This document shows positions 4,061 through 56,500 of a stretch of 64,000 nucleotides of DNA, in pieces. Under the pieces are notes generated by a model. The model searched no databases. It was not told the DNA's origin and worked only from the letters and a program-made list of their open reading frames with translations. Source of the stretch: Chiridota heheva (Eukaryota > Echinodermata > Holothuroidea > Apodida > Chiridotidae); NCBI GenBank assembly GCA_020152595.1, contig JAIGNY010000327.1, positions 1,785,001-1,849,000 of the forward strand, given 5' to 3'. Each line of letters begins with the position of its first letter. Position 1 is the first letter of the stretch. Made by a program: the position numbers and the translations under genes.

Positions 4061-4310
4061 TAAATGAGAATCAAAAATATATTTTTTCCCTATGTAGCCT
4101 AAAACACTAATGATGCTTATGGTTGCCGTTTCATGTGTGGCCTATACTAATCTGGTGCTTTGTAAAAATTTGTTCTTTTTGGCTTTATTTCACCAAGTTA
4201 GCAGAACTGAAAAGTCAGCCCATTTTGGCAAATTTGCCCATATACCTGTCAGTCACAAATGTATTTTTAGCTACAGTATGCATTAAAATCTTTCAATTAG
4301 TTTGAAATAT

Positions 4311-4703
4311 GCCCATCCAACAGGATGTGCCCATCCAACAGGATGTGCCCATCCAACAGGATGTGCCCATCCAACAGGATGTGCCCATCCAACAGGATGT
4401 GCCCATCCAACAGGTAAGCCCATCCAACAGGATGTGCCCATCCAACAGGATGTGCCCATCCAACAGGATGTGCCCATCCAACAGGATGTGCCCATCCAAC
4501 AGGGATGTAAGCCCATCCAACAGGATGTGCCCATCCAACAGGATGTGCCCATCCAACAGGATGTGCCCATCCAACAGGATGTGCCCATCCAACAGGATGT
4601 GCCCATCCAACAGGACGTGCCCATCCAACAGGACGTGCCCATCCAACAGGACGTGCCCATCCAACAGGACGTGCCCATCCAACAGGATGTGCCCATCCAA
4701 CAG
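4311..4703 (+). repeat. 18-bp minisatellite, left half (about 22 units)
   Basis: Tandem units of CCCATCCAACAGGATGTG, with a GACGTG variant clustered near the right end and two slightly irregular units near 4412 and 4502. Because 18 is divisible by three, several frames stay open across the array; these open frames are artefacts. The array stops exactly where the LINE at 4704 begins. Confidence 0.95.
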
Positions 4704-7700
4704 TGGTAGTGATCATTATCCTCTTCTTACACACTCCAACCTTCAAACCCCCACTGACCACACCCCCAATTGGAATCTCAAGAAGGCTGGCTGGCCCCTT
4801 TTAGAAACCCTCTGTGACTCACACCTCTCCCCCCCTTTCCCATCTTCTTAAGGATGAGGATCCCATGTCAAACTTCAGTAATATCCTTATCAACATTGCC
4901 ACCTGCACAATTTCCAAAACTTCCAAACCCCCTAATCATCCCCCCAACCCCTGGTTCTCTGATGACTGCACAATTGCCATCAAGAACAGGAAAAGAGCGC
5001 TCAGGAACTTTAAAACTAACCCGACCACCCATAACCTCAACCTCTTCCGCATCAGTTGTGCCAAGGCCAGACGCACTATCAAGGACAGTAAAACCAACAC
5101 TTGGAACAACTTCATCTCTTTTCTCACCACCAACACCTCCTACTAAGAAGATTTGGAGAATGGTTAACAGCTTCCATGGCAGAGTGGGCAAATCTCCTAC
5201 CTCCCATCTCCCTTGGAATGGTGACCTTCTCACCGCGAAAAAGGACATCGTTAACCACCTCGCCGCCTCTTCCAGCAACATCTTGTCCTCAACCAACTAC
5301 TCCAATGCCTTCAAAACCAAAAAAGCTTGCGATGAAGCCGGAAAATCATCTTTCCCTCCGACAACTCCGAAAGCTACAACACCCCTCTCACCCTTTCGGA
5401 ATTCGACCAAGCCATCCACGATGCTGGCTGCACCTCCAAGGGCCCAGATAACATGCCCTACCAGTTCCTAAAACACCTCCCCATCAGGGCCACCACTACC
5501 CTACTCACCATCCTCAATCACATTTGGTCCTCACACTCCTTTCCCCCTATCTGGAGGACAGCTATTGTCACCCCCGTCCTTAAACCGGGGAAGGATAGTA
5601 CCGACCCTCCAGCTACCGCCCCATTGCCCTCACCTGCTGTCTCTGTAAAATTGTGGAAAGAATCATTAATTAGAGATTAGACTGGTTCCTTGAGACCAAC
5701 AGAATTCTCTCCCCTCACCAAAGCGGCTTCCGAAGATGTCGCAATACCCTATTATGCTCGACATTGCTATCCGGGAATCCTTTGCAAAAAACGAACACCT
5801 CATTGCCATTTTTTTGACCTCGAGAAAGCTTTCGACACTACTTGGAAATACGGCATTATCCGCAAACTTCACAACATCGGCCTCAGAGGCCATTTCCCCA
5901 TCTTTATGCAAAACTTCCTCTCACCCAGACAGTTCCAAGTTCGTATTGGCCACACCCTCTCCAACCTATACCCCCAAGAAGAGGGCATCCGCTCTCCTAC
6001 TCTCTTCAACCTGAGCATTAATGACATCGCGGACAACCTTGGCCCCAACATCAAACGTACCTTCTACAGGGATGACTTCACCATCTTCTATTCCTCCCCT
6101 AGCTTTCCTCTTGTTGAAAATAGGCTCCAAATCCGCCTCAACCAGCTGCAAGTCTGGTGCAACAATAACGGTTTTAAATTCTCCAAAGACAAGACAGTCT
6201 GCATGCACTTCTGTCATTTTAACAACCTCCACCCCAACCCGAACCTTGTGCCCATTGGCAATTGCATCTCTAAAGTTGAACACACACAGTTCCTGGGTCT
6301 AACTCTCAAGCTCACCTACAAGCAACACATCACCAACCTGAAACTAAAATGCAAGAGCTTTCTTAACATTCTCCCCCTCCTCTCCAACACCACTTGGGGT
6401 GCAAACCGCCATGCTCTCCTCAAAATTTTCAGCTCACCATTCATGCCAAGCTTGACTACGGCAATATTGTCTACTGTGCCGCTTACAACTCATACCCCAA
6501 CCACATCAACACCATCCAAAATGAAGCCCTCAGGCTTTGTCTAGGTGCCTACAAGACCTCCTCAATCACCAGCCTTCATGTTGATGCCAACGAACCCCCT
6601 TTTTCTACTTAGATGTAGAAAGCTTAGCCTCTCTATGCTTTTGGAGTCCTCACCAACACCCAGAACCCTGTTTTCAACCTCATTAGGTACCCCAATTTCT
6701 CCACCCTCATTGATAGGACTAAAACCCTACCTCTCCCTTCAGCTTACGCATTAAAATATACCTCTTTCAAACTCTGCATCAACCCCGCTACTCTCGGCAC
6801 CTTCTCCTGGCCCACTTTTCCTCCTTGGGCCACCCCCTCCCTTCTGTCCACCTGACCTCTCCACTCATCACAACAAAACTCAAACCCACCCTAACCTCTT
6901 CATCAATCTCCACAACCAAATCAAAGACCAAGTCTTAAATTACACCTCCATCTATACTGATGGCTCCAAGAAAGGCAACAAGACAGCTGCTGCTGCAGTC
7001 ATCCAAGACATCACCCTCAGTAGCAGACTTCCCAAATACTCATCCATCTTTTCAGCCGAGGCTAAGGCCATTCTCCTTGCCCTCAACTTTATTGAGTACT
7101 CCCCGCTCAGCCACTTTGCCATTTTCTCCGACTCAAAGGCTGTTTTTACTTCTTTACTCAATCTTAAATGGGATAACCTGACATCCCACATCCTCCTCCG
7201 GAAACTACTTCGCCCATTCTCTGCAGGAAAAGTGTTCTTTTCTTCTGAATACCCAGCCATGTTGGCATCCCTGACAATGACAGGGCTAATGCAGCCGCTA
7301 AGCTTGCCCTCAACCTCCTTCCTACCCCTTTCCCCAAAATCCTCTCTGACATCAAACCACTTATCACTTCCCTTATTCGTGACCGCTGGCAAACCTCATG
7401 GAACTCCCAAATTGATAACAAACTCCATGTCATCCACAATTTTGATCAAGCCCACCATCAACAACCTCTCTCGTATCGACAACGTTCATGTTACCTGTCT
7501 TAAAATAGGTCACACCCACCTCACTCACTCCCACCTCCTTATTGGCTCCCCCAACCCCTCTGCAACAATTGCCATTGCACCCTCACAATCCATCACGTTC
7601 TCCTTGCTTGCCCCCTGTACAACCTTCCCAGAGCTTCCCTCGCTTCCCACAACTCAATTGCTGAGTTCTTTCCGAAAAATCCTCCGGATGAAATTATCTC

Positions 7701-7944
7701 CTTCCTTCATCATGCTTCCCTCTCCAACCATGTTTAATTCTCCTCTTCCACCCCCCTTTCTCTACTTTGATTTTGTTTCAACCATGCACCTCCTCTCTCA
7801 ATCACAGCTATCTGACTTTTTGTTCTTGAATTTCTCTCATTCTTCCTCTTTTCTTTCCTTCCTACCTTCAGAATGATCTGACCTCAGGCACAATTTGACC
7901 CTCGTTGTCTTAGTGCCGTTAAGCCCTCATCAAACAAACAAACC
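4704..7944 (+). mobile_element. 5'-truncated LINE with APE remnant, RT and RNase H, family A copy 1 (decayed)
   Basis: The copy starts at the last motif of an APE endonuclease (SDHYP, 4708-4722). A linker of the kind found between endonuclease and RT follows (4850-5150). The RT region at about 5690-6420 has motif A FFDLEKAFDT and a catalytic box reading YRDD at 6065-6076 where active enzymes have [FY]ADD. RNase H motifs follow: YTDGSK (~6953), SAEAKA (~7050), FSDSKA (~7122) and the final WIPSH region (~7240). In this last motif Trp is replaced by a TGA stop and a later Asp by Asn. The frame is broken many times. The 3' end is a GTGCCGTTAAGCCCTCATC block followed by CAAA repeats. RNase H after RT suggests the I superfamily. 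The element is not an expressed host gene. Confidence 0.9.
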
Positions 7945-7949
7945 AAGAT

Positions 7950-8505
7950 GATGTGCCCATCCAACAGGATGTTCCCATCCAACAGGATGTTCCCATCCAA
8001 CAGGATGGACCCATCCAACAGGATGGACCCATCCAACAGGATGGACCCATACAACAGGATTGACCCATACAACAGGATGGACTTATACAACAGGATGGAC
8101 TTATACAACAGGATGTATCCATCCAACAGGATGGACCCATACAACAGGATGGACCCATCCAACAGGATGGACCCATCCAACAGGATGGACCCATACAACA
8201 GGATGGACCCATACAACAGGATGGACCCATACAACAGGATGGACTTATACAACAGGATGTATTCATCCAACAGGATGTATCCATCCAACAGGATGGACCC
8301 ATATAACAGGATGGACCCATACAACAGGATGGACCCATACAACAGGATGGACCCATACAATAGGATGTTCCCATCCAACAGGATGTTCCCATCCAACAGG
8401 ATGGACCCATACAACAGGATGGACCCATATAACAGGATGTATCCATCCAACAGGATGGACCCATACAACAGGATGTATCCATCCAACAGGATGGACCCAT
8501 ACAAC
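7950..8505 (+). repeat. 18-bp minisatellite, right half (about 31 units)
   Basis: Units of CCCATMCAACAGGATGNN continue the array left of the LINE, but with other end variants (GATGTT, GATGGA, GATGTA, and TACAACAG in place of TCCAACAG). Only the first unit (7950-7967) is of the left-array GATGTG type. Open frames across the array are artefacts of the 18-bp period. Confidence 0.95.
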
Positions 8506-11372: not shown

Positions 11373-11516
11373 GAGCTTGCACAGTTAGAAGCATTGTGTA
11401 AGCAGCTTTATGAGAGTCCGGATACAGACCAGAGATCCCAAGCAGAAAAAGCGCTCGTCAGCTTCACCAATGCTGCTGATTTAAACAAGTGTCAGCTTCT
11501 CTTGGAAAGAGCAAAT
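11373..11516 (+). CDS. XPO7: XPO7 exon 2
   Basis: 144 nt, phase 0 at both ends, 48 codons starting [15 protein letters not shown]. It encodes helices of the importin-beta N-terminal domain ([18 protein letters not shown]), which contacts RanGTP in this family. The acceptor is TTTTCTGTAG and the donor GTAAGT. Human exon 1 encodes MADHVQ and joins at this same point, so the start codon is not here. Confidence 0.96.
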
Positions 11517-20500: not shown

Positions 20501-23500
20501 ATTCATTTATATGAGTGTTGTACTTTGCTTTGTAAATCATTTTTATTGCTTTCTTTGGAATGACAAAAATTGGATGAATATTGCTCTGATAGGTGTTACC
20601 CCAAACCTCCAGACAATAATCAATGTAAGGAAAAACTAAAGAATTGTAAAGAAGTTTGATAGACTTCACTGTTCTTTGAAATTACACTTTATCGCAAGAC
20701 TTCAGATTTTATCTTTTTGATATGTTTCTTCCAATTTAATTCACTGTCCATTACTACCCCTAGAAATTTCGTGTTTAATACTTATTCAATCACATACTCA
20801 TCAAATTTTATAATGATAGAGTTTTCACAATGTCTTTTTGAAAAAATATCAAATTTGTTTTATCTATATTTAAAGATAATTTATTTACCATAAACCAAAC
20901 TTTCAAATCTTTTAACACCTTAGATACACATGCGCTCAAATAATCAATATCATAATCTGTACATAAAATATTAGTGTCATCTGCAAAGAGGACAAATTTG
21001 GCAACATCAGAAACACAACATATATCATTGATGTATAAATAAAAAGCATAGGTCCCAGAATGGATACTTGAGGAACATCACATCTGATATTTAAATAGTC
21101 TGAGGAACATTAATTAATTTGTACATATTGCTGTCTGTTTGAAAGATAATGTAGTGAATACATCTTTATATACTACTCCCCTTCACAACTTAATGTACTT
21201 TTCATTACACAGTTACATGGGGGACGTTTTTAGAGCACATATTTGCCACATATACTCTTGTTTACCCAAGAAATAAAAAATAGAAAAATGTATTTATATT
21301 TTGTGGTTCTTTTTAATGAAAAAATAAATAAAACTTCCTGCAAATTCCTGTTTTTCCCATGGTTATAACCTCCAGAGCTGTAGATTTGTTCCAGGTCTGG
21401 AGGTAATGTACTGCTGCATTGGAAAACAGTAAAAAGAAACTGAAGGGCTCAGAAAATACTTCAAAATCTTGTTTTTTGAAGGAACTATTTATATTTATCG
21501 AGATCAATCTGTCTATGATGACTGTTACAAGTAATTTGTAATACTTATCCTTTAAAGCGTTTACTTACAATTCATTATGTGTTCATGGATTAAGTATGGA
21601 AGCTGGGGCACCAAATTGAGGGTGCACAAGGCCAGGCAGAGTGTATCCACTAATATCCGGTGAACCCACAGTTAACCTTGTTTATTTATGTATTTAAACT
21701 AAAAAAGGGATTTAATGGCTGAAATGTGAAATAAATGTAAGTTTTATTAAGTAATTGACTTTTTTTTTTTTTTACAATCTCTTCCATTAATAAATGCCAC
21801 TTAGCTGTTTTGGCATTGGTTAACATCAGCTGACACCTACATATAAATGAATGACAGTTTATTCTTTTAGTGACTGAAGTTTTTGGAATAGTGAATATTT
21901 GTGGTTTGACACAATTGCTGACCAGTTCTCACAATAAATATTTGACAGTGGATTAGCTTTTGCTTATGATTTTTTAAGGCGTTAATGTGTTTAAAGGGGT
22001 ACTAGACTGAAAAGTGAAAGCGCAATTTTTTAGAGACTAAACTTTTCAGGAAAATCTTTTTGACCCATGTGGAGAGCTACAAAACTTCTCTAACACCGAT
22101 ATTTATACAAAGTTGTTTTCTGAGATTAAACAACAAGAATATATCACTTTAGAGGCAAAATATGTCAGTGAATATTCGAAAAATTCATCAAGAAAGATTC
22201 TTATGGGTGTAGTTCTTCTTGAATTCTTTTAAAGATCAATAAATACTGTTATCTTATTTTCCAATATGCTGTGATTGCCACAGATCTAGCTACTTCTTCA
22301 GTAATCATTAAAACAATTATTCTTATGAAGGCTTTTTTTGATCTGATATTTTCATCCCTTTAACTTTAATGATTATTTATAACTATGATCCATTATTTTC
22401 ATTACAGTCGGATAATATCAGACCATTGACAAGACACAGAAAGATTGCATCCTCGTTCAGAGACACTGTCCTTTTTGAGATTTTCAACATGGCGTGCACT
22501 TTGCTCAAACAGGTAATTGATGTGTCCTGTATCAGCTATGAGTCTCACAAATTTCATTTCATTTATTGATTTGTTTTCTGACAAAATTCAAATAATAACG
22601 CAGTAAGATAGTAAAAGTACACGGAGTTGGGAAAGGAAGTGCTATATAAACCCTTTATGGTTACAGCACCCTCTATTAATAGTGGGGAGTACTTGATTGA
22701 TTTGGTACTTAGAGAAATGAATCTAGGTTGCGAATTCTTGGTTTGACCTCACTTGAGTTGAGAAGAGTACGTGGCGATATGATTCAGGTTTTTAAATTCC
22801 TCTCTGGTAGGGATGCTTGGACTTCCTGTAATTTCTTGCATGTTTCAGCTAATCCTCATGTGACACATGGTAGCACTTTGAAGTTGACCAAAGAGTTCTC
22901 ACGGATAGATAATCAGCGTTTTAGCTTTTTGCAAAGAGTTGTTAATGAGTGGAATGGTTTGCCTGAGTGGGTAGTTAGCTCCAATTCTGTTCACAATTTC
23001 AAAGTCAACATTGATAAGTTCTTTACTAACTGGGCATTTTTTTGTTTTTTTGTAGTGGTGGTGGTGTTAGTTTGGGCTTTTTATGGGGTGATTCACCCTT
23101 CTTAGCCTGTCATCTTGTTAGGTTAAATGATAACTGAAATATTTAGAGCATCTATTAAAGAAGAATATGAAGAACATTTTTATTTTCATCAATGCAAATC
23201 TATGTGAAGTCAATATTGATTTTGGAGAAATATATTAGAGAAAGATTTTTTATTTTAGAACATAAAGTGGCAGTGATATTTAATCCTAAATTACATTTTC
23301 TAAGTAAAAGGATATTGTTTATTGTCTTTTTGCAGGCTTCAGAAGAAGGTGTGGATTATCATGATGAGAAAAAGGTGAGAATGACATCTTTTGGGATAAA
23401 TACATAAAAAACAATATTGTGTCAGATGGATGCTGTCTTGAAGTATCTAATATGTTAGATACTTCTCACAATGGAAATAACTTTTTAACGGCTGCAGTTT

Positions 23501-35500: not shown

Positions 35501-38500
35501 TTGGCCACGATTGTAGTATAAATAGACTTAAAGGATTCTAATGCTTTTTCGTAACCTTTCTTAGTACAGAAATCATGTTGATATGTTATTCCTGCCAGGA
35601 GATATTCAGATTTTAAGGTTAACAAAAAATGGCAATAAACAAATAGGAAAAGGCTCAGAATGACATCACAGCAACACATTTTCCCACAAAGTTCATGTAT
35701 TTCATTAAAAACTTATCATCCTTTTTTATTAGTAAAACCTGCTTGAAAAATAAACTGATAAAAGTTTATATACATTGCCAAATAAACCCTACTTTAGTAA
35801 CTTTGGGAAAATTGTTTCTAGTCATACAGAAACAACCAATTAACATTCAAAGAAACATAAAAACATTTGCAATGGAATTGCCTCTATGACATCATCAAAC
35901 ACGAATTCATTGTACTGTACATAACATTTAAAATGCAATTGGGAAATCTTTAAAAATCCACATCTCCTTAACGGAATATGATATCAATCTGATTTTTGTA
36001 CCAAATTGGCTCTTAGAAGTATGCTCTTTCAAAGAAAATTTTACAAAAAACCATGGCAATATTCCTTCAAACATCATTTTCAGTGATTGAGATTAGGAAA
36101 AAAAAATTAAACACTTATGCAATGAATTTGAGTATGCTGTCAGTCATAAATTAAAAATTGATTAAACTTTGATTAGCTATTTCCACATCTTAGCCTACTT
36201 TTTGTATGAAGAGTTCCTAGGATCAAAATAGGGGGCTAACAGAGTATACGATAAACTCCCTCTATGGTTCAGGGTAGTATTACGTCAAGTAGACTGTAAG
36301 TAATGCTACCTCATGATTCTTAGTTTAAATATAGGAAAAATGCAAGAATCCTGATTGATTTTTTAAGTGCGAAAGTTAATTCTGTTGATTTTTGATTGTG
36401 AAAGCTATATTGACAGGTTGTGTTAAGAATAGCTAAGTTCCTTAACAATCCCAGTGAAAAGCATGGAAATGGCAGTGATTCCCATCAAAAAATGATCATT
36501 TTACATATTTGTAATTTGAAGGCATTAATATGAAATTTTGTAACTCATGATGGGGCAGACCTCTATTCATGAATAACTTGGACTATAAATTTTCAGTCTA
36601 TCGCACTAAAACCAAACTGTTAATTATGTTCAACAATTTAACTGATATCAGGCCTCCCGGTAAACCTTTAAAAACCTTTGAAACCTTTAAAAACCTTTAT
36701 TGACAAATTGAACCTTTATTCCTTTCAAAATAACCTTTGAAACCTTTAAAAACCTTTATTTTCAAAGTTAAGTAAGGTAAATGATTCGAGTGCCAAGGTT
36801 TTAGCTTCATTGGTAAGTATACACATCCATTTAATAGCATATCTGTTTTCAACACACATCTAAAAGTAGCAGGACCAAAATAAAATTTCCGACTTCACGT
36901 AAGTAATGGACTTTTGGCGCCACCAACTGCCTTTTGCCCCAGAATATGCTCATTGTATGAAAATTTATTTCATAAGTTAACCTTTATAAACCTTTTTATT
37001 TAAATCCAAAACCTTTAAAAACCTTTATTTCAACTTTTCCAACCTTTAAAAAAACCTTTATTTTAAAAAAGAGTCACTGGGAGGCCTGTGATATATCCAA
37101 CGTTCTTAAGCCCCAAAATCTTAGGAAAAATAAAAGAAGAATGAATACAGACTTTAGGGCATTGGAGAATGTGGCACCACAACTACTCTGATTTCAAGTC
37201 TTTTTCTACACTAATGAGATGAAGTTTAAACTTGAATAACTCCTTAGCGAGATAAGATATTGAAATACTTTTTTCACCATTTATTAAGATGACTCCTTGA
37301 CCACTGATCTAATCATCTAAGCTTCCCTGAACTCTTGCAAACGATTGAAGTTAGAGGAGTGTTACTCATACAAATAAAATGTCATTCACATCAACAGGCA
37401 CCAGTATGGCAATTTGCTCCAAATAGTATTCACTACCTTCTGACACTGTGGCAGAGGATGGTCGCCTCTGTGCCTTACGTCAAAGCGACAGAACCTCATC
37501 TCTTGGAGGTGTACACCCCAGAGGTCACCAAAGCTTACATCAGCTCCCGCCTTGATTCAGTACCCGTGGTGTTACGGGAGGGCCTCGAGGACCCTCTGGA
37601 GGACACGGGGATGGTGTTACAGCAACTTGATCAGGTAAGAAATGGTTAACCCCAATCAGTCACATAATCCATTTTATAACAGTTATTATAAGTGCAATTT
37701 ATTAAAAATAACTTCTTACTGTGATTAATGTTTCGTTTAGATGATAAATCACAGTTACTTCACTAAGCCTTGCTACTCCATACTCCATTTCATAGCAATT
37801 ATTAACATATTTTATCGAAAATTACATGCAGTATTTTTTGTCATGAATGAAGTTTTTAGATAATAAATCACAGTTACTTCGCTAAATCTTGTTTACTCAT
37901 GATCCATTTCTTAACAACTATACATGTATTTGATCTACCACAGAGGTCTTGCTTGTATTGCCTTTCTTTTTATCCATTTAACTATCCTTTTTTGTCTTTT
38001 CTTCAGCTGTCTACAATTGGTCGTTGTGAATATGAGAAGACGTGCCAGCTACTGATCTCCCTTTTTGACAGAGCTGCTCAAGAATACCAAAAACTTATTC
38101 AGAATAATGTGTCAGGAATTGATTTAGCAATACAAGAAGGTAGGAAAGTGATCTAATATGTATCAGTCTATGAGAGCTAACACTTGAATAGACTTTCAGA
38201 AATTCTTTTAAAATTTGTGTAGAACAGTCTTTGAAGTTAGAAAATAGATTTTTCATTTTCCAAGCTATGGCTGAACAAAGTTTGAGGAATAACAGATTTA
38301 TTCCAAATTTGTAATGTGTGACTGGGAACCACAATCTTTATGTACATTTTTAGGTTGTTTTCAGCAATTTTAGTCACTGAACTTAAAGAGAAAGTCTGTT
38401 CTTGCTAGAAATTGATTTGGGGTATGGTAATGACTCTAGAACTTTTGGTCTGAATTTCTTGCACCCCTTCAAAGACAACTAAATATCTAGGTCTCTCAGT

Positions 38501-41500: not shown

Positions 41501-44500
41501 TACACCTCAATCTATTCTGATGGCTCCAAGAAAGGCAACAAGACAGCTGCTGCTGCCGTCATCCAAGACATCACCCTCAGTAGCAGACTTCCCGACTACT
41601 CGTCCATCTTTTCAGCCGAGGCAAAGGCCATACTCCTCGCCCTCAACTTTATTGAGTACTCTCCGCTCAGCCACTTTGCCATTTTCTCCGACTTAAAGGC
41701 TCTTCTTACTTCTTTACTCAATCTTAGATGGGATAACTCCACATCCCACCTCCTCCTCTGGAAACCCCTTTTGCCCACCCTCTGCAGGAAAAGTATTTTT
41801 TTCTTCTGGATACCCAGCCATGTTGACATCCCTGTCAATGACAGGGCTGATGCAGCCGCTAAGCTTGCCCTTGACCTCCCCCTACCCCTTTTCCCAAATT
41901 CATTTCTGACATCAAACCGCTTATCACTTCCCTTATTCATGACCGTATCACTTCCCTTATTCATGACAACTGGCAAACCTCATGGGACTCCCAAATTGAT
42001 AACAAACTCCACGCCAACCAGCCCACCATTCCGTTCAAAGCCACCATCAACAACCTCTCTCGTATCAACAACGTTCATATTACCCGTCTTAGAATAGATC
42101 ACACCCACCTCACTCACTCCCACCTCCTTATTGGTTCCCCCCAACCTCTCTGCAACAATTGTCATTGCACCCTCACAGTCCATCACGTTCTCCTTGCTTG
42201 CCCCCTGTACAACCTTCCCAGAGCTTCCCTCGCTCCTCACAACTCAATTGCTAAATTCTTTCTGAAAAAAAACCCTGGATAAAATTATCTCCTTCCTTCA
42301 TCATGCTTCCCTCTACAACCATATTTAATTCTCCTCTTCCACCCCCTCTCTCTACTTTTTTTTCTTTTTCACCCATGCACCTCCTCGATTACAGCTTTCT
42401 GACTTTTTCTTGTGTATTTCTCTCATTCTCCCCCTGTTTCCTTTCTTTCCTACCTCTATAATGATCTTACCTCTCAGGCACAATTTTAATCTCGTTGTTG
42501 TGGTGCCGTTAAGCCCTCATCAAACAAACATAAAATTTATAATTGATCAAAATCGGCTAACATACATGCAAATATCAATTCTTAAGAATAAGAGTAAGAG
42601 TAATGGCAACATTAAACGCAAGAAAATGTTACAGATCAGGTACAGAATTAGAAGCACAATCAAGAAGTTATGTCCTAAGTAAATGTCTACAACTGTTGAA
42701 GGGATTTAGAATATTGGACTAAAATGGTCACTTTTCATAGCTTTGGACCATGTACATTGGACACAGAACATTGACCAAGAAAGATTTATATTTGGAAATT
42801 ACAGTGGGAAAATATCTTCATAAACATGTTAGGCAAGTAAAATGAAGGTATATTATTAAGATATGTAAAAGAAATTACAAACAAAATTAAATTGATTAAT
42901 GTAGAAAACAGGAAGCCAGATCTTTCATAAGTTCACATGGTAGAGTGAGACGATCACTGTTTGTAATTGTAACCATTTTGTGAAGCTGACTTTTTTTTGG
43001 TTGGAAACAATTAATTCTGTTTTGGATATTCGTAAATATACTTGTTTTTAAACACTTTTAGAGCAATTTGATTGCAGTTCATCTTTTTAAAGATTATATC
43101 TTTAATTATAAATGTGAATGATTCCTAATTTTCCACAATTCTCTGTGCATTTTTTATTTTCGCAGAGTGTTGCAGCTCATGAACATAACAGATGCAAAGC
43201 TGTCTAATGGAGGATCAGAGAAATTAGATCTAGCTTTGCTTAGCTTTTTTGAGCAATTTTCTAAAATTTACCTTGGTAATCAAGTACAAAAATCATCCAA
43301 AGTGAGTTATGAAGCCTTTGTTATGTATATTTTGTGGATTTGTAGCTTTATGTTGCTATGATTTAAGTCGGCATATATTTTGCTAAGATCATCGTTTGCA
43401 TCTTTAATTTAAAAAAAAAATATTTTTAAATTTTAATTCAAAAAGTATATTGTTGTTGCAAAATATGAAAAGTTTACTTCTTAGAATACTGTGAAACTTT
43501 GTAAAATGTAGAATGAAATAAATCAGACATGTTTAAAGTAAAACTAATTCATATGTGAATATAGGATTTTATTCTTCTTTCATACATTATATTGCCAAAC
43601 GTAAAGAAATGTCAAGACGTGATGAAGAAACTTTTCACAAAAGTTTGAATGGGCACCTGACTGAAAATGTCTAAAACTTCTTTATGTCCTTAGTCAGCAT
43701 TTTGACTGTTATAATGATGTCATGTATATGTAAATGGCGGTCAGTAGTTTGATTGGGGAATGTTATCAACAGCTAAGTTTAAAGCATAAAATATGGAGAA
43801 TTACATTAAGCATGCCTTCAACTTTCTATACCATAAAATCTGCGTATCTTAAGAATTATTGTAACTGTGATCATTAAGAACTCAGTAATAAATAAGCTAA
43901 GACACTTTTTGAAGATGTGATTTATGATTCTATGAAGAAATATGTTATTGACATTTGTATTTTTGACCCACATTTTACTTCTACAGTTGTACAGAACACT
44001 ATCTCAAGTGCTTGGTCTGTCGGATGAATCAATGGTTCTCAGTATATTCATAGGCAAAATGTAAGTTATTACTTTATTACATTATTACATTATTGCATTT
44101 TTCCTCAGCATGTTCAAGAGGAAAATTTGAGGTTAAAAGATTACTTCAGTGGTGAAGCAAGTCACATAATATATTATAGAGGACTTTAATAGAAACAAAA
44201 TGGTGAAGAAACTACTTAAGGAGGTATTTAAGTTTATAAGTTGTCTCAATTGTGAAGAAATGCCTGGTGTGGAAAGTCTACTGTAGAAGAGTGGCACATC
44301 ACCCTCAGTTTCTTAACAATTATGTATGTGGGTAAAAGAAAATGATTTGAACTTTTTTATGATTTAATAACTTAATAAGCTTACTAGATTCTGTTTTACT
44401 TGCCTGGTGTATAATTTTCTTTTGAAACCACTCTTGAGTCAAATATATCCGTACATAATTTAATGTTTTGAGATATTTTTACCAATTTGGAGTACTTTTT

Positions 44501-47500
44501 TTATGAATTGGAATTTTTTTCTTCAAATTTACCTCCTGGGGTAACTTTGAAGTAAAATTTACCTCCAGGGGTAACTTCGGGTAACTGTAATAAATTCTGT
44601 TTTACTTCTTGCATGAGGTAACTTCGGGTAACCGTAATAAATTCTGTTTTACTTCTTGCCTGACATATTTTTTTTTTTTGAAACCACTCAGAACCAAATA
44701 TATCAGTACACCATATAATGTTTTACTTCTGTTACAGTATAACCAATTTGAAGTACTGGGGTCGTAGTGAACCAATCATATCAAAAACCTTGCAGCTCCT
44801 TGGTGGTCTTTCGGTGGGTTACAGTAGCGTACGGAAATTGGTGAAGCTGGAAGCGGTGCAATTTGTTCTTGGAAATCACACGGTAAGTTTTACATGCATG
44901 CTTGAAAATGGTAGGCTGGTGCAGGTTATGTTACACGTGTCACCTGTATCAAAGAATGTTGGTCATAAGAGTCCCAAACAAACTTCATTGTGTAAAATCT
45001 TATCTTGGAAATTACCCTATGTTACAGAACTATCCCATTCACCCCTACAACATTCGATAAAGTTAATGATCACTTACTCTGATTAATCTCAAGTGTAATT
45101 AATTTACTTTTCCCTTCTAATCCCTCAGGTACATATTATTTATTATCAAAGGAATATTCCTATAAATTTATTTTCATTTATATGTATGATAGAGGACTAA
45201 TAAAGACACAATTTGGTGTAACAGTCATGTAGATATCTCTTTCCACTTATGAGTTACTGCATTTCAAAGATTGTGGGAGTATGTTGAAAAGTGATCTTAC
45301 AATGTACAGTGTGATGTCATACAGGCAAATCCAAGACAATTTTTGTGTATTTCTTTGAAATTCATTGCCTCTTTCCAAGTAACTGGAAGCACTCTTTGTT
45401 TATTAACTGAGATGGGGTTATAACATACACTTTATAAGAATGTGCTTTGTCCATCTGCCCATGAACCTTACAAATAAAAGAAAACATGTTTTTTATTTTT
45501 GTTTGATAGAAATACATAAGAAATGTCTTGGATCTGCCTTTATGACATCACATTTTACACTACGAGGTCACATTTCAACACACCAGTACAATCTTTGAAA
45601 TGCAATAACTCCTAAACGGTAAAAGATATCAACATGGTTTTTTCACCAATTTGTTTCTTTAATAATCCTCTATCATATGTATGGAAATGAATAATTGATC
45701 ATACTTTTTGTGCACATGATAAGCCTTGGTGTGGATGTTCAACTCGACAGTGATTATTTCTAATAGATACTTACGTAAAATGACACCTGTGTTTATCAAA
45801 ATTCACTTGACTTAAAGAGCACTTCAATTTTTTAACCTATTTAATTAACTTGAAATCATTTATTTCAGAGTTCCCATTTTCCTTTCCTTGGTGTGAATGG
45901 TACCCTCTCTGTGCATGACATGCGATGTCGAACCACCTTCTACACTGCCCTTGGCAGACTCCTTATGGTGGACCTGGGTGAAGATGAGGAACGCTTTGAG
46001 AACTTCATGGTTCCTCTGACCACGGCGGTGGAATTTGTCGGTAGTCAGCTTGCAATTGCGGATAAGGGCGGTCCTTGGAATGAAACAGAGACGAAGGTAA
46101 AATGTGCTTGAAATGAACTTCTTAGTAAAGAAATGTAGGTTTCATAGATGACGCAGCTTTCTCTATCCTCCTCTTGCTGCAGGGAAATGGACACTTGGGC
46201 TCCTTTAGCAGTTAAAGCTATAGGCGAGTCAGTGGCGAGCTCAAATGTCCTTTATGCGCCAGCAAATGGACGTGAAAGAAAGCTGTAAGTCCACGAACCA
46301 GAGTCACAGCCAAAAACACTTTTGATGTCCTGGAAAATTATGAAACCTATGAACGTGAAATGGGCATCTAGCAATTAAGCTTTCCAGGTTTTCAAATATG
46401 CCACGCCCACCATAGCATCGCGGTAACTATGTGGGGCAAACAAACCTCAAATCCGCAATTGTGCATTACCAATACAATACGTTGACATTTAGCCTAACGT
46501 AGATGTTCGCAAGGCCTGCCGCAAGCTTTGATTCATTTCTGGCACCTCTCCGGATCTTTAGACTTTTTAGCAAATAGGATGAACAAAATTTAGTTTGCTT
46601 ACTTCAGGGTAACAGCAATCAGATTTACAAAGCCCGCAAGCGCATTTTTTGCTCACCATTTTGCCGTCACTCAGTCTGTGTGTGCAAAAATTAGTTTTGT
46701 ACAGTAAGTTTCATTGCTCCGCTAGCTAGCTGTATTGTACCAGTACCGTGTTGGATGTTTGCCCCCACTTAGTTACGCAGATTTTCTTGGTAGGCAAATT
46801 TGTGCGGGGATTGGTTAAAACCAGCTGTCAATCATTAAACCCAGAAAGATTAATTGTAGATATGGCATCATTAAAAGTGTTAGATTAGATTATAATGTTG
46901 TTGTGTGTTTTTATGTGGCAGTCAAGTCTTAAATGATATGTAGTTGATTGTAAAATTTGTAAGTTTTGAATTTTGTTCTACAGAGGACCCTGGTTGGTCT
47001 GGCCAGAGACCTGAGAGGAATCACATTTGCCTTTAACACAAAGACCAGCTACATGATGCTGTTTGACTGGATGTATCCTTTGTTCCTAAAATTTGAAATC
47101 TAATTTGTAATTTCAATTAAAGCTTGATGTTTTATGTTCTATTTCTGTCTCATCACATTTATTTTTAAAGTGGAAGAAAATATCCCTTATCGCTTGGATA
47201 AAATGCTTGACCCTGCATACCTCCAGTATGTAATGGGCTAATATGCCGCATAATATTGCAGTATTAGAAGTAACACACATTCAGTTTCGTGGACATTTTA
47301 ATTTGCCCATCATAGTTAAATAAATGACTTCGACACTACCATAAAAGTATGGAGTGATCATAAATATGAAGTAAAACATGACAGAAAATGTTTCTTCTTT
47401 TTGGCGAGGAATAGTTTTGTATTGGTAAATAACGACCAAAGTAATTACGTTCAGGAACTGCTTCCAGAGAACCACCAAAGTAACAGTAGACAACTTGCAT

Positions 47501-50500
47501 TAGTATGTACATGTTTTGTTTTTCTTTGAGAGGAATACTTCTTTTGACGAATGCCAAAACATGACATTTTCTTGTAGATTGTTTTGAGCCTTGTATACGT
47601 GTACACAACTTATCAAATTATGTAAATTTGGTATGGTTTTATTTTAAAGATCGGTTTTGAAGGACTGTAGACCATTTTACCAGACTCACCCAGGCACTTG
47701 GTGTTGGACTTGACTGTGATATAGACTGATGTACACAGAATTTAGAGCTCTTACAATTGATGATTATTTATAAAAGAAAGAATTTGTAGCTATCTATATA
47801 GGCTTTTCAATGTAAGATTGTCTCTGTTTTAGCATAGCATAGCAGGGTTTAACGTCCCGAAAGCATCCAGTGCTGGACATTATATCAAGATGGCCACGGC
47901 CTTTGATAACCAGTTGTGAACTCACTGGACGCAGACCCACCGGGAATCAAACCCGGGATGTGCGTGTGAGAGGACTAACCACTACACCACGGAGGTCTGT
48001 CAACAGTTTTGTTTCCTGTTTTCCATTTCTTTAATGTAAACTACTCTTAATTTGTTGTATGTACAGTTGAAGTTTATTGGTGGTGAAAGAGAAAGTTAGC
48101 AATATAATAAAAATCTTTCTAGTATGTGCAAAACTCTTACAAAATTGTATATACACCTTAAATTGAGCAATGATCAAATAGAAGGGTAAGGTTGTCTTGC
48201 TTGGACTTAAAATTAATGATACAATTTCCCACGGTTCAGCTGATTTGTGTCCCAAATTTTCCCGCGAAAAATCACGGAAGAAAAGGTGCAATGAATTGTC
48301 ATTTGCTTTTATTTATTGGACTCTATTCTTCTAACAAAATAACTTGGAAATTTGTAAATATTGAATTTGTTGGGTTTGTTTTCTTCCTATATTTTTTTCA
48401 TAAATGATATGTTTCTTCTCGTGAACTTCCGCTTTTCCCATGATTATAACCGCCAGTACTGTATATTATTCCAGTCTTGCTTATTCCTTGTTGAGACATA
48501 TTTCCTTAACTTGTGACTCAGCTACCCATCATATTGTCCTATTCTATTGCGAGCAGTTGAGTTGTGGTTTCATGACCCCATGGTAACCACACCAGTCCTA
48601 AAGCTAATGGCGGAGCTTGTACAGAACCGATCGCAGAGGCTTCAGTTTGATGTGTCATCACCCAATGGTATCTTACTCTTCAGGGAGACAAGTAAACTTG
48701 TGGTTGCTTACGGTAAGTGCATCTCTTTCTGAATGCTCGACAAACGCATCCTTGCCTGTCATCTGGTGATGATTAACATTCAAACCCATGCACGGTATAT
48801 ATGTGAAAACCTGCCTGTTTAATTAGGCTTAAAAACAAATGTTTGTTTGCCCTCCTCCGCTATCCCTAACTCGCTGAAGTTTTTTTCTCTCTTCAATTTC
48901 CAAAATTCTCTACGCTTGGTAAAAATCTCTATAAAATGACGTGGCTATCACTTTTGCCTGTTGACTGTTTCTGTGGAGAACATGAAGCCCACCACCCACA
49001 ATAGCTTGTAATAGAAGACAAAGCTGTCCTCCGTTTGTAACGAGTTTGTCAGGCAAGTGAAAGAAAATCCCAAATCACACAAAAAGCATAAGTGACATAT
49101 AAAAACTGAGCAAACTAAAAGGAACCAGCTATTTGAAAATAAAGTGAAGTGTTTAATTTTGTTTTTTAAGTGTTCTTGATAATAAACCTTGAGTGAGCCA
49201 GTGAGGAAAGATTCCATTTTAGTGATCTGGGGAGAAAATTAAAAAAAAACTTTTTCTGCGAACTCCTCTCTTGCAATTTTTAACAAGAAAGGGCAAATAA
49301 ATTAGGTTTTTTTAGGCCTTATGAATTTTTTTTATCTGGCTATGCCACTAGTATTGACTGCCTTTTACTCCATACTTGGAATAAGTTAGTGTAACTGTTT
49401 AGTTCAATTGACTCATGTGCCAAAATGACTCACAAGTTAATATTAATTCTGAGTCGGTATGAGCTATGGGTAAAAATGACTGAGTCATTATTAATCATGG
49501 GTTTAAATGACGTAGTGAGTTAGTTTAAGACATGGGTCAGAATGACTTGGTTCAGTATAAGCCATGGGTAAGAATGATTTCCGAGTCAGTATCAGCCATG
49601 GGCCAGAATGAACTTGGATTCAAAATGAGTCATAGCACATGCTGAATTAAAAGTCAGAATGTTCTTGGGCTAGAATTTTCTTTACAGAAAATTTGTGTTG
49701 GCAACTTCGCAATACCAAGTTTTAAATGTGGGGAATGCCCTGTTTAGTGCTGCCATATTTTCTTCCATAGGATACAAACTAAAAGCTATGATAGAAATGG
49801 TCATAGCTATTCAGAACCCCCAAAAGAAGGTAACACCATAGATTCATTGATGATAGCTATTCAGAACCCCCAAAAGAGGATAACACCATAGATTCATTGA
49901 TGATGGCTATTCAGAACCCCCAAAAGAGGATAACACCATAGATTCATTGATGATAGCTATTCAGAACCCCCAAAAGAGGGTAACACCATAGATTCATTGA
50001 TGATAGCTATTCAGAACCCCCAAAAGAGGATAACACCATAGATTCATTGATGATAGCTATTCAGAACCCCCAAAAGAAGGTAACACCATAGATTCATTGA
50101 TGATAGCTATTCAGAACCCCCAAAAGACGGTAACACCATAGATTCATTGATGATAGCTATTCAGAACCCCCAAAAGAGGATAACACCATAGATTCATTGA
50201 TGATGGCTATTCAGAACCCCCAAAAGAGGATAACACCATAGATTCATTGATGATAGCTATTCAGAACCCCCAAAAGAGGATAACACCATAGATTCATTGA
50301 TGATGGCTATTCAGAACCCCCAAAAGACGGTAACACCATAGATTCATTGATGATAGCTATTCAGAACCCCCAAAAGAGGGTAACACCATAGATTCATTGA
50401 TGATAGCTATTCAGAACCCCCAAAAGACGGTAACACCATAGATTCATTGATGATAGCTATTCAGAACCCCCAAAAGAGGATAACACCATAGATTCATTGA

Positions 50501-53500
50501 TGATAGCTGTTTAGAACCCCCAAAAGATGGTAACACCATAGATTCATTGATGATAGCTATTTAGAACCCCCAAAAGAGGGTAACACCATAGATTCATTGA
50601 TGATAGCTATTCAGAACCCCCAAAAGAGGGTAATCTTATAGATTCATTGATGATGGCTATTCAGAACCCCCAAAAGACGGTAACACCATAGATTCATTGA
50701 TGATAGCTATTCAGAACCCCAAAAGAACCCCCAAAGGGTAATCTTATAGATTCATTGATGATGCTATTCAGAACCCCCAAAAGAGGGTAACACCGATTCA
50801 TTGATGATGGCTATTCAGAACAGTAACACCATAGATTCATTGATGAAAAGAACGGTAACACCATAGATTCATTGATGATAGCTATTCAGAACCCTTAAAA
50901 GAGGGTAGCCCCATAGATTCATTGATGATAGCTATTCAGAACCCCCAAAAGACGGTAACACCATAGATTCATTGATGATAGCTATTCAGAACCCCCAAAA
51001 GAGGGTAACACCATAGATTCATTGATGATAGCTATTTAGAACCCCCAAAAGAGGGTAACACCATAGATTCATTGATGATTATTTGATAACACCATAGATT
51101 CATTGATAGCTATTCAGAACCCCCAAAAAGATGGTAACACCATAGATTCATTGATGATAGCTATTTAGAACCCCCAAAGAGGTAACATATAGATTCATTG
51201 ATGATAGCTATTCAGAACCCCCAAAAGACGGTAACACCATAGATTCATTGATGATAGCTATTCAGAACCCCCAAAAGACGGTAACACCATAGATTCATTG
51301 ATGATAGCTATTCAGAACCCCCAAAAAGAGGATAACACCATAGATTCATTGATGATAGCTATTTAGAACCCCCAAAAGAGGGTAACACCATAGATTCATT
51401 GATGATAGCTATTTAGAACCCCCAAAAGACGGTAACACCATAGATTCATTGATGATAGCTATTCAGAACCCCCAAAAGAGGATAACACCATAGATTCATT
51501 GATGATAGCTATTCAGAACCCCCAAAAGAGGGTTACACCATAGATTCATTGATGATAGCTATTCAGAACCCCCAAAAGACGGTAACACCATAGATTCATT
51601 GATGATAGCTATTTAGAACCCCCAAAAGAAGGTAACACCATAGATTCATTGATGATAGCTATTCAGAACCCCAAAAGAGGTAATAATAGATTCATTGATG
51701 ATAGCTATTCAGAACCCCACCAAGATTCATTGATGATAGCTATTCAGAACCCCAAAGCGGTAACACCATAGATTCATTGATGATAGCTATTCAGAACCCC
51801 CAAAAGAGGGTAACACCATAGATTCATTGATGATAGCTATTTAGAACCCCCAAAAGACGGTAACACCATAGATTCATTGATGATAGCTATTCAGAACCCC
51901 CAAAAGAGGATAACACCATAGATTCATTGATGATAGCTATTCAGAACCCCCAAAAGAAGGTAACACCATAGATTCATTGATGATAGCTGTTCAGAACCCC
52001 CAAAAGAGGGTTACACCATAGATTCATTGATGATAGCTATTCAGAACCCCCAAAAGAGGATAACACCATAGATTCATTGATGATAGCTATTCAGAACCCC
52101 CAAAAGAGAGTAACACCATAGATTCATTGATGATAGCTATTCAGAACCCCCAAAAGAGGGTTACACCATAGATTCATTGATGATAGCTATTCAGAACCCC
52201 CAAAAGAGGGTAATCTTATAGATTCATTGATGATAGCTATTCAGAACCCCCAAAAGACGGTAACACCATAGATTCATTGATGCAACATTTCTTTCCATCC
52301 CATATTTATAGTATTCTTTCTTCTCTTTCCAGGGTCCAGATTGCTGACTATGCTGGACATTCCAAAAGACCAGATATACCCCATGAAATATCCTTTTCAC
52401 TGTCCATGGTCATCAGATATTGGCCACCTGTAATTTTGTGGCCTTTGAATCTTGGCACTTTTATCTTTTGAATCAAAATTTAGAACATCAACGTGTTTTG
52501 ATTCATGTTTGCAGCATGAAAGTGATTAATTCATAAGTTGTATATAATTCATTTTGTCCTAGAACTTAAAGCTCTCTATACTTTACACTTTGGATTGTAA
52601 CATTTCATTAGAAGGTGATGATTTTGGAGACATGCCCAGAAAAGTCGATCTAGGTCTTTATCGCTGAAAAGCAAACTAAATCATCTACCTGATTAAGTAG
52701 TTCAAAAAATACATTGTATATTAATTGTTTTCAGGAATCATTCACTTGCATTTGAAAAACCCAAATTCTTCAACATTTAAAAGATGTTCCATGCAGGGTT
52801 AATATTTTTGTTTTCTTCAAATCGTTGTTTAATAATTGGGAATTTTATGGTGGAGAAAGTTTCTGCCAAAATCTGATCAATGGGAGGGATCAGAGATTCT
52901 AAATCTTGAAATCTTTTGGGAGAGTCTTCAGGAAGTGCAATCGGGAGTAAATTATTTCTTTACATACATTGCCTTTAATCTTAAATGGGATAACCTCACC
53001 TGCCACCTCCTCCTCTGGAAACTCTTTTCTCCCACCCTCTGCAGGAAAAGTGTTCTTTTCTTCTGGATACCCAGCCATGTTGGCATCCCTGGCAATGACA
53101 GGGCTGATACAGCAGCTAAGCTTGCCCTTAACCTCCTCCCTTCCCCTTTTCCCAAAACCCTCTCTGACATCAAACCGCTTATCGCTTCTCTTGTTCGTGA
53201 CTGCTGGCAAACCTTATGGAACTTCCAAATTGATAACAAACTCCATGTCGTCCAGCCCACAATCCCGATCAAATCCACCATCAACAACCTTTCTCGTATC
53301 GACAACGTTCATATTACCCGTCTTAGAATTGGTCACACCCACCTCACTCACTCCCACCTCCTTATTGGTTCCCCCCAACCCCTCTGTACAATTGCCACTG
53401 CATCCTCACAATCCAACACGTTCTCCTTGCTTGCCCCCTGTACAACCTTCCCAAAGCTTCCCTCACTCCCCACAACTCAATTGCTGAGTTCTTCCAGAAA

Positions 53501-56500
53501 AATCCTCCAGATTAAATAATCTCCTTCCTTCAGCATGCATCCCTCTACAACCATATTTAATTCTCCTCTTCCACCCCCTCTCTACTTTGTTTTTGTTTTA
53601 CCCATGCACCTCTTCTCTCGATCACAGCTTTCTGGCTTTTGTTCTTGAATTTCTCTCATTCTCCCCCTGGTCTCTTTCCTTCCTACCTCTAAAATGATCT
53701 GACCTCTCAGGCACAATTTGACCTTTGTTGTCGTGGTGCCGTTAAGACCTCATCAAACAAACAAACAAACAAACATTGCCTTTATTGCAACAGTTAGACT
53801 ATTTGCAGTGTTGATAGAACATCCAACGACTGAAATTTTGGAGTGGAGAATATATCATTTTTCCTTAACAAATGATCACATTAAAAGGTATTTCCATCTG
53901 TTTTGCAATGTTGAAGGCTGCCCTCTCTGGCAGCTATGTCAACTTTGGTGTTTTTCATTTGTATGGTGACAGTGCGTTAGATGAAGCGTTGCAAATGTTC
54001 ATCAAGTTACTATTATCAGTTGCCCTGCATGATCTCTTGGTAAGTTATATCAGTTTGTTTTAAATCAAGAATTTATAAGAAGGGATCCAAGCTTTAAGCT
54101 CTCTACGTCAGATATACCAGGCCTTGTAAGAGCAATGTTCCATACTAAGGTGTATGCAAAAAACTTTTAGTAGTTACAGTAAGTAAAAAATTTCCCATGC
54201 TAAAGTAGTAAGTAACAGTAGCAATGCTTAGAATATTTTAATACTGATAAGACAAAAAAATTTTATCTTGTTTCATAATGGACAGAATATATTTTGTTCT
54301 TTTGTTTTTTAAATTATTTTCACTTTCTATTTGTTTACTGTTTTTTGTCTTTGTGTAATAAAAACAAAGATATATTTATATAATAGTTTACTGGCAATGG
54401 CAACAGTCTTCTATGATAATGTATGTACCCAATATTGTGGATATAGTGCTTGGCACAATTTAGCTTAAAAGTCCTGAGGTAGATTTTGTGAAATTAAGTA
54501 GTGTTTTCACTCTTTTATTTCTATATTTATATTTTCAACAGGATTATCCTAAACTTAGTCAGTCTTACTATGGCCTGGTGGAGTGTCTTGCTCAGGATCA
54601 TATGAACTTCATTGCAGCTTTAGAACCTCAAGTCTTCCTGCATATACTGTCCTCAATTTCAGAAGGGCTAACTGCATTAGGTAAGAGACAATGAAGACAA
54701 GAGTTGGAATTTGAATGCGATTCTAAATAAAGGTGTCAAAAATCCTATTAAAAATGATTACAGAAATAATATTATTGATGTAGTAAATCTTTATCTGCTC
54801 ACACTTTTACCAACACATTCCCTCTTTCGCAATTTACGCAATTACGTGCGGGGCATTCTTAGAGCACTGAACCCAAAAGATTTAGTTTACTGCTTGTTGC
54901 TAACTCAAGAAATAACAACAAAATTAAAAAATATTTCTTCCTGCTAATTCCTGCAGTTATAACCACCGGAACCAGTTGTGTATGTAGCTTTATTGAGATA
55001 GCATGTGAGTTGTAAATACTTACTTTCCCCACCTAAGGTTTTTTTTTTTCTTTCTTTCTAGTTTTTGTTTAAAAGTGCTTGTTTGTACAAAGAGTAATCA
55101 GTTGTGTTTTACAAACAAACGAAAACTATAAAACAGAACAAAAAATCAATTACGTCTTGTCAATATTTAAAGAATTTTTACTGTATGTAAAAATTGTGAT
55201 GTATGAAAGAGAAGACACTTCAGAATGTTGAATGTAATTCTTAAAATTTGTGTGCTAAATTGAAGTCACTGAAATAGCCACAGTTTATTGTTGCTAAATT
55301 TAGACAGAAGGTTTGACGGGGATTCACCTCTTGGTCATTTTCAAATGCTCCCACTCACACAATTTTGGTGCAAGATCAAAAAACGAGAAGTTATTATAAG
55401 GAAATTTTCTCCTTTTTATGTCACAAATTTCGGTAAGAATTTCAAATTCGAACTACCGTTTTGAACGTAATAAGTGCCTTATTACACCCAGGGTGCTTAC
55501 TAAAATAGAATTGAACCACTTTTATTTTTAAGCCCAAAGTTTTTTCATAATAAGCAGGCATGCTCCTGGGCTGCATACAGTGTGCTATTCAAACTGCATT
55601 GTTCATATATGTGAACTGGTTCTATCCTAGCCCCACAATAAGCACCACATTGTGAGCGGCAGATGCAAAATAAGCAAAGGATGGAGAAAAAAACTTAAGT
55701 ATTTTAAGTCTTCATTTTAATCAAATAAATTATGTTATCAGTCAAAAAATGTTGGGTAGACGCTTATTAGATCATAGGCACTTAATACGATACTATACTA
55801 TTTTAAGTGATTTTGATTCAACTTTGCTGCGTTCATGGTTTATAGCAGATGGTCAACTTGAATGGTTTTGATAACTGTTTGCCATGATCATTGTATATTG
55901 CAGATTTTATTTCCAATTAAAGCTTACATTGTTGCTTTTTTATCCACACATCATTTTCTTTTGGACTCTATTTTATCATTATTCTTTTTTCTTGGCAGAT
56001 ACTATGGTTTGCACCGGTTGCTGTGCTACGTTAGACCATATCGTTACCTATCTCTTCAGACAACTCCATAAAACTGGTAAATCCAAGAGCGACAACTTTC
56101 CTAAAATTCTGGACATTCCACGGGAAATACTTCAACAGGTATGATAAGAGGAATTACAGAACATTTTTTCTTGAAAATTGAGTTTACTAGAAACATACTG
56201 TGGGTAACCTAAGCATCATGAAGATTTGTTGTGGTAAGAAAGCAGGAAACTAGTAGTTTGCATCAGCGGTTGTATCAGATAAAGACCTATTTTCCGACAA
56301 CTTTATAAAGTTGTTGATAAATCCAAGAACACTTAATTTTACCAAAGCCATCATCAACATTTTCTCGATAGCCAGGCACACTATCCCTCCCACCTGCACC
56401 TCTCTTATCCCTGCTTAAGTTTTCCTTGGCCTTTCCTTCTACATAAAAGCTCTTCACAACCCAGCCTTCTTTCGCTCCAAATACTGTCAACTCGGTAGAC

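Follow-up and report, generated by a model that had tools for sequence, protein, structure and literature searches.

About 50 human genes are known to carry two U12-type introns (PMC3584512), as do the majority of SCN and CACN1 channel genes in mammals (PMC2831892), and the clustering of U12 introns within genes is significant in 21 of 21 genomes (PMC7367187). The case described here is the exportin-7 gene (XPO7) of Chiridota heheva, located on the + strand of a 64-kb stretch of DNA that was analysed as a whole and is called the window. Its introns 20 and 22, numbers that are valid provided that exactly one exon precedes the first exon located (11373-11516), are almost certainly genuine U12-type introns, GT-AG and AT-AC respectively, and would be removed by the minor spliceosome, twice per XPO7 messenger RNA (mRNA). 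XPO7 resembles the described genes in having two U12-type introns among many U2-type ones, but it differs from them in encoding a nuclear transport receptor and in mixing a GT-AG and an AT-AC intron of the same phase. The frequency of this mix among genes with two U12 introns was not found in the available text of PMC3584512 and PMC2831892. Since about 50 human genes of this sort are already known, XPO7 would be a good new example of a kind that is not itself new.

Another system to be compared is human RANBP17, which we take to be a paralogue of XPO7. In this gene a U12-type splice signal is present after exon 20 and is used for the production of circular RNAs (PMC4506483). Both genes belong to the exportin-7 family and have a U12 donor after exon 20, a match made by exon number only, but an AT-AC intron two introns further on is not mentioned in the section and legend of PMC4506483 that describe the human gene. 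An earlier interpretation of this DNA made from its letters alone (the sequence-only reading) had considered it likely that the positions of both introns are conserved. The RANBP17 signal is consistent with this claim by ordinal number for intron 20, but nothing was found for intron 22.

The same reading had counted transport-receptor genes among the known hosts of U12 introns. The abstract of PMC8280824 agrees, genes with retained AT-AN minor introns being enriched for nucleocytoplasmic transport, but its main text names neither exportins nor importins. No paper naming XPO7 as a U12 host was found among the main texts of the open literature, and no XPO or RANBP appears in the main text of the intron survey PMC6717393; XPO7 may well be already present in published lists of U12 introns. 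According to PMC8280824, dependence on CENATAC is a feature of A-type (AT-AN) minor introns and hardly of G-type ones, although a subset of the latter responded. Intron 22 of XPO7 belongs to the AT-AN class, and a gene of the CENATAC (CCDC84) family, the only minor-spliceosome protein family searched for, is present in the genome. What differs from the published system is the presence, in one transcript with intron 22, of the G-type intron 20, which would hardly be dependent unless it belongs to the responding subset. Introns 20 and 22 would thus differ in their need for CENATAC. Because the two minor introns are of different subtypes, one XPO7 transcript could be its own internal control for factors that, like CENATAC, favour AT-AN introns. 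The CENATAC-family matches lie on two contigs, five stretches on G000:C3315 and two on G000:C1556; the first two stretches are common to both, and the contigs are perhaps alternative haplotypes or one of them a partial copy.

Among the 26 introns modelled in XPO7, introns 20 and 22 show no mismatches to either RTATCCTTT or TTCCTTRAY. The other 24 are all GT-AG introns, with three to seven mismatches to RTATCCTTT and two to four to the best TTCCTTRAY near the 3' end. Intron 20 starts in the context GAT/GTATCCTTT and finishes with AG; intron 22 starts in the context GAA/ATATCCTTT and finishes with AC. The presumed branch A of intron 20 is at position 48509, and the distances from the branch A to the last intron base, 12 and 11 nucleotides (nt), fall within the optimum of 11-13 nt given for U12 introns (PMC3584512). 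U12 introns of the GT-AG subtype show an excess of T at position -1 of the donor (PMC7367187), and a T is found at this position in intron 20.

The positions of the splice junctions were evaluated by protein alignment to a human XPO7 reference sequence, the candidates being all in-frame and open joins of the GT-AG, GC-AG and AT-AC types that lie no more than 60 nt from the boundaries. Only terminal dinucleotides, and no longer splice motif, were used in this test, which was meant to lessen circularity. The joins proposed for both introns obtained the highest scores: 387 for intron 20 (372 for the runner-up among 18 candidates) and 249 for intron 22 (233 for the runner-up among 13). The coordinates, the motifs and the GT-AG and AT-AC termini given in the sequence-only reading are confirmed, as is its claim that each junction restores an exportin-7 segment; the gene model bears out that both introns are in phase 2 and that exons 21 and 22 lie between them.

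The genome also encodes the four small nuclear RNAs (snRNAs) specific to the minor spliceosome: U12 (two loci, the best at 117 bits), U6atac (two, 116 bits), U11 (two, 91 bits) and U4atac (one, 82 bits), all seven loci exceeding the curated Rfam cut-offs. Nucleotides 19-26 of the U12 snRNA (UAAGGAAA) are complementary to the branch motifs of introns 20 and 22, and the donors of both introns are complementary to U6atac nt 12-17 (AAAGGA) and U11 nt 3-7 (AAAGG). The longest perfect U6atac stretches are 6 and 7 nt at these donors and 5, 3 and 4 nt at three control donors; those of the U12 snRNA reach 8-9 nt at the two branch sites and 4-5 nt at one control. At one locus (L011), where the full U6atac copy is on the - strand, four short stretches similar to the 3' portion of U6atac, each some 40 nt long, are located downstream of that copy (872-911, 915-956, 958-1000 and 1432-1475).

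Further evidence comes from another gene of the same genome. Lin et al. (PMC2831892) list PHB2 as a host of an AT-AC U12 intron in the fly, its human orthologue also having a U12 intron. In the C. heheva PHB2, ATATCCTTTT is found at position 290429 of contig C3162, directly 3' of an exon; the branch motif TTCCTTAAC (297117) precedes an AC that is immediately 5' of the next exon. This intron is like XPO7 intron 22 in donor, branch motif and AC end, so that both motifs of intron 22 are seen again in a gene listed as a U12 host. The two genes differ in that PHB2 contains a single such pair (RTATCCTTT and TTCCTTRAY occur once each on the same + strand of the 50-kb region) and XPO7 two U12 introns. 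The situation in XPO4 is different. All six matches of an exportin-4 piece are on one contig, on which the C-terminal half of the gene was located. No XPO4 intron was found at the sites aligned with XPO7 introns 20 and 22, since exons 178366-178659 and 183072-183245 of contig C2343 span both; the alignment of the two proteins is distant, which makes positional homology approximate. The + strand of the 50 kb around XPO4 contains no RTATCCTT, and TTCCTTRAY is present at 155574 and 193559. The lack of introns at these roughly aligned positions of XPO4 would count against a general U12 rule for transport receptors.

Several observations weigh against assigning introns 20 and 22 to the U12 class. 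Their 3' ends are fairly rich in pyrimidines (14/20 and 13/20), although U12 introns typically have no distinct polypyrimidine tract; in the 17 nt before the 3' end there are 12 in intron 20 and 10 in intron 22, and the range of the other 24 introns (9-16) overlaps with these values, so that this trait does not set the two apart. The U11 stretches at the two donors, 5 and 6 nt, are not clearly longer than those of the controls (4, 5 and 4 nt); for instance, the 5 nt of intron 20 are equalled by the donor of intron 19, elsewhere in U11. The U2-type donor of intron 21 gave duplex energies of -7.4 (U6atac) and -5.9 (U11), as low as the values obtained for the two U12 donors (-7.2/-6.6 and -5.3/-5.4). 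Pairing with snRNAs thus discriminates the U12 sites from the controls only partly. In addition, the human XPO7 sequence that served as junction reference was not taken from a database record, and the PHB2 intron is a putative counterpart of the published one.

From the observed sequences, junctions, reading frame, minor snRNAs and complementary stretches we infer how splicing would proceed in the animal. U11 would read the TATCCTTT donors of introns 20 and 22 and U12 their TTCCTTAAC branch sites, U6atac would then take the place of U11 at the donor, and the major spliceosome would excise introns 19, 21, 23 and the remaining ones. The dependence of XPO7 on two minor-spliceosome steps, as the sequence-only reading had proposed, is supported at the level of sequence by the U12 character of both introns, the restored exportin-7 junctions, the four minor snRNAs encoded in the genome and the precedent of PHB2.

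A failure of splicing at either intron would spoil the message. If intron 20 is retained, an in-frame stop codon starts at intron base 29, and if intron 22 is retained, at base 44. Skipping of exons by the major spliceosome after loss of minor function has been described (PMC8034651). Here, the skipping of exons 20 and 21 (280 nt) or 22 and 23 (215 nt) gives a frameshift, and the frame is kept if all four exons (495 nt) are omitted. A conserved nuclear transport receptor would be limited at two points by the scarce minor spliceosome.

The different ends of the two introns could have a function of their own, acting as address labels that separate introns 20 and 22 and prevent the skipping or circularization of exons 21 and 22. 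Because both introns are in phase 2, these exons (246 nt, 82 codons) form an in-frame cassette, and the skipped product would contain no premature stop. A cross-join would have GT-AC ends and a circle AT-AG ends; both combinations seem disfavoured (PMC3584512), and mixed ends could insulate the introns in this way. Exon skipping involving U12 introns is rare, in part since few genes have more than one (PMC3584512), and the human RANBP17 circles, which are formed from the U12 donor after exon 20 (PMC4506483), indicate that this class of donor can leave the linear path. However, the argument is drawn from this single gene, and the mixed ends are possibly inherited accidents. Both subtypes are common, with 565 GT-AG and 204 AT-AC clusters in U12DB (PMC2831892), so mixed pairs are often expected by chance. 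Moreover, non-canonical CU-AC introns were still spliced, although less efficiently, in a test of the sixteen combinations of first and last bases cited by PMC2831892, and mixed ends are thus not necessarily an absolute bar. Such labelling is on the whole quite unlikely. It is decidedly unlikely that the mismatch of termini has been selected because it blocks the cross-join and the circle of the cassette and leaves one CENATAC-dependent and one CENATAC-independent step per mRNA. The XPO7 pair is nevertheless a clean case in which to ask whether terminal dinucleotides stop neighbouring U12 introns from being cross-joined.

That the motifs arose by chance, introns 20 and 22 being ordinary U2-type introns with other boundaries, is very improbable. 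A Markov model of order 3 derived from the entire window, including the motif sites and tandem repeats, predicts about 1.2 copies of RTATCCTTT and about 0.4 copies of TTCCTTAAC on each strand. The two + strand copies of RTATCCTTT in the window are exactly at the donors of introns 20 and 22; its two - strand copies are at sites unrelated to the XPO7 U12 introns. Of the three + strand copies of TTCCTTAAC, two are in introns 20 and 22 and the third is at 36438; a single copy is found on the - strand, which makes three copies of the two motifs there. However, the probability that donor and branch motifs are jointly placed by chance is about 6e-9 per intron under the same model, GT-AG joins fit intron 22 worse than the AT-AC join (218 for the best of them against 249), and the motif pair is seen again in PHB2. 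Chance matches with U2-type boundaries are rejected on the placement of the motifs together with the protein-alignment scoring of the joins. It is scarcely credible that one of the two U12 introns derives from the other by duplication within the gene, an origin suggested by their common phase, 8-base donor core and branch motif and rejected because similarity is limited to weak and short blastn matches (the best one with E 0.022, 32 nt at 78%) and because what the two have in common is the general U12 consensus, found in PHB2 too.

The copy of TTCCTTAAC at 36438 is followed by AG and lies in XPO7 intron 12. It could accept a back-splice in the manner of human RANBP17, but 0.4 copies of the motif are expected by chance.

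The gene to which the two U12 introns belong was located by tblastn with a human XPO7 sequence as bait. The model, which extends from exon 2 to the stop codon, has 27 coding exons and encodes 1084 amino acids with no internal stops; 787 of the 1071 residues aligned with the human reference protein are identical. Exon 1, upstream of the first exon located, was not found. The protein contains the TPR_XPO7 domain (PF25795, E 1e-100, 336 bits against a cut-off of 27) and the importin-beta N-terminal domain IBN_N (PF03810, E 5.6e-9, 36.3 bits against a cut-off of 21). Identification by Pfam is independent of the human bait sequence. CRM1_C and NLRX1_C also matched the whole protein, both below the Pfam cut-off. 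No second copy or allele of XPO7 was found in the 1.1-Gb genome: all four matches of a 210-residue piece are in this window, nine candidates having been scored. The solved structures matching XPO7 represent 26 distinct sequences, exportin-4 at the top and the remainder exportin-1/CRM1; XPO7 itself is absent among these 26, and a 164-residue fragment gave zero matches in the Protein Data Bank and in Pfam. Exon 8 of XPO7 is a micro-exon of 39 nt (23336-23374 of the window). The coordinates of the region around the two U12 introns are collected in Table 1.

Table 1. Position in the window, strand and supporting evidence of the XPO7 features discussed in the text.
Feature	Position	Strand	Basis
XPO7 coding region, exon 2 to stop codon	11373..61385	+	gene model; Pfam TPR_XPO7, IBN_N
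XPO7 exon 20, 89 nt	46984..47072	+	tblastn, gene model
Intron 20, putative U12-type, GT-AG, phase 2, 1449 nt	47073..48521	+	0 mismatches to both motifs; top of 18 joins
Predicted U12 5' splice site GTATCCTTT, intron 20	47073..47081	+	motif match; complementarity with this genome's U6atac (nt 12-17) and U11 (nt 3-7)
Predicted U12 branch-site motif TTCCTTAAC, intron 20	48502..48510	+	complementary to U12 snRNA nt 19-26
XPO7 exon 21, 191 nt	48522..48712	+	tblastn, gene model
Intron 21, U2-type GT-AG, phase 1, with 50-bp minisatellite	48713..52332	+	gene model, repeat analysis
XPO7 exon 22, 55 nt	52333..52387	+	tblastn, gene model
Intron 22, putative U12-type, AT-AC, phase 2, 1492 nt	52388..53879	+	0 mismatches to both motifs; top of 13 joins
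Predicted U12 5' splice site ATATCCTTT, intron 22	52388..52396	+	motif match, snRNA complementarity
Predicted U12 branch-site motif TTCCTTAAC, intron 22, A 11 nt before last base	53861..53869	+	motif match, U12 snRNA complementarity
XPO7 exon 23, 160 nt	53880..54039	+	tblastn, gene model

The window also contains different types of repeats. Most of the U2-type intron 21, located between the two U12 introns, is occupied by the minisatellite (49803-52282), in which a 50-bp unit containing the strings TTCAG and GGGTAAC is repeated about 50 times. In intron 20, a short element resembling a transfer RNA (tRNA) is apparently present at 47830-47995, as judged by eye; an Rfam scan of the window gave no matches, and a search aimed at tRNAs or short interspersed nuclear elements was not made. 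Three related stretches were detected at 52977-53769 (inside intron 22), 7160-7946 and 41720-42530; the copy in intron 22 resembles the other two at 89% and 85%. They are probably a retrotransposon without long terminal repeats: among the open frames around them, 41327-42094 matches RNase H above the cut-off and two more below it, and the nearby frame 5681-6541 matches reverse transcriptase. Finally, 18-bp tandem repeats are found at 4310-4703 (about 22 copies) and 7956-8505 (about 31 copies), and on both strands several frames run through them without a stop.

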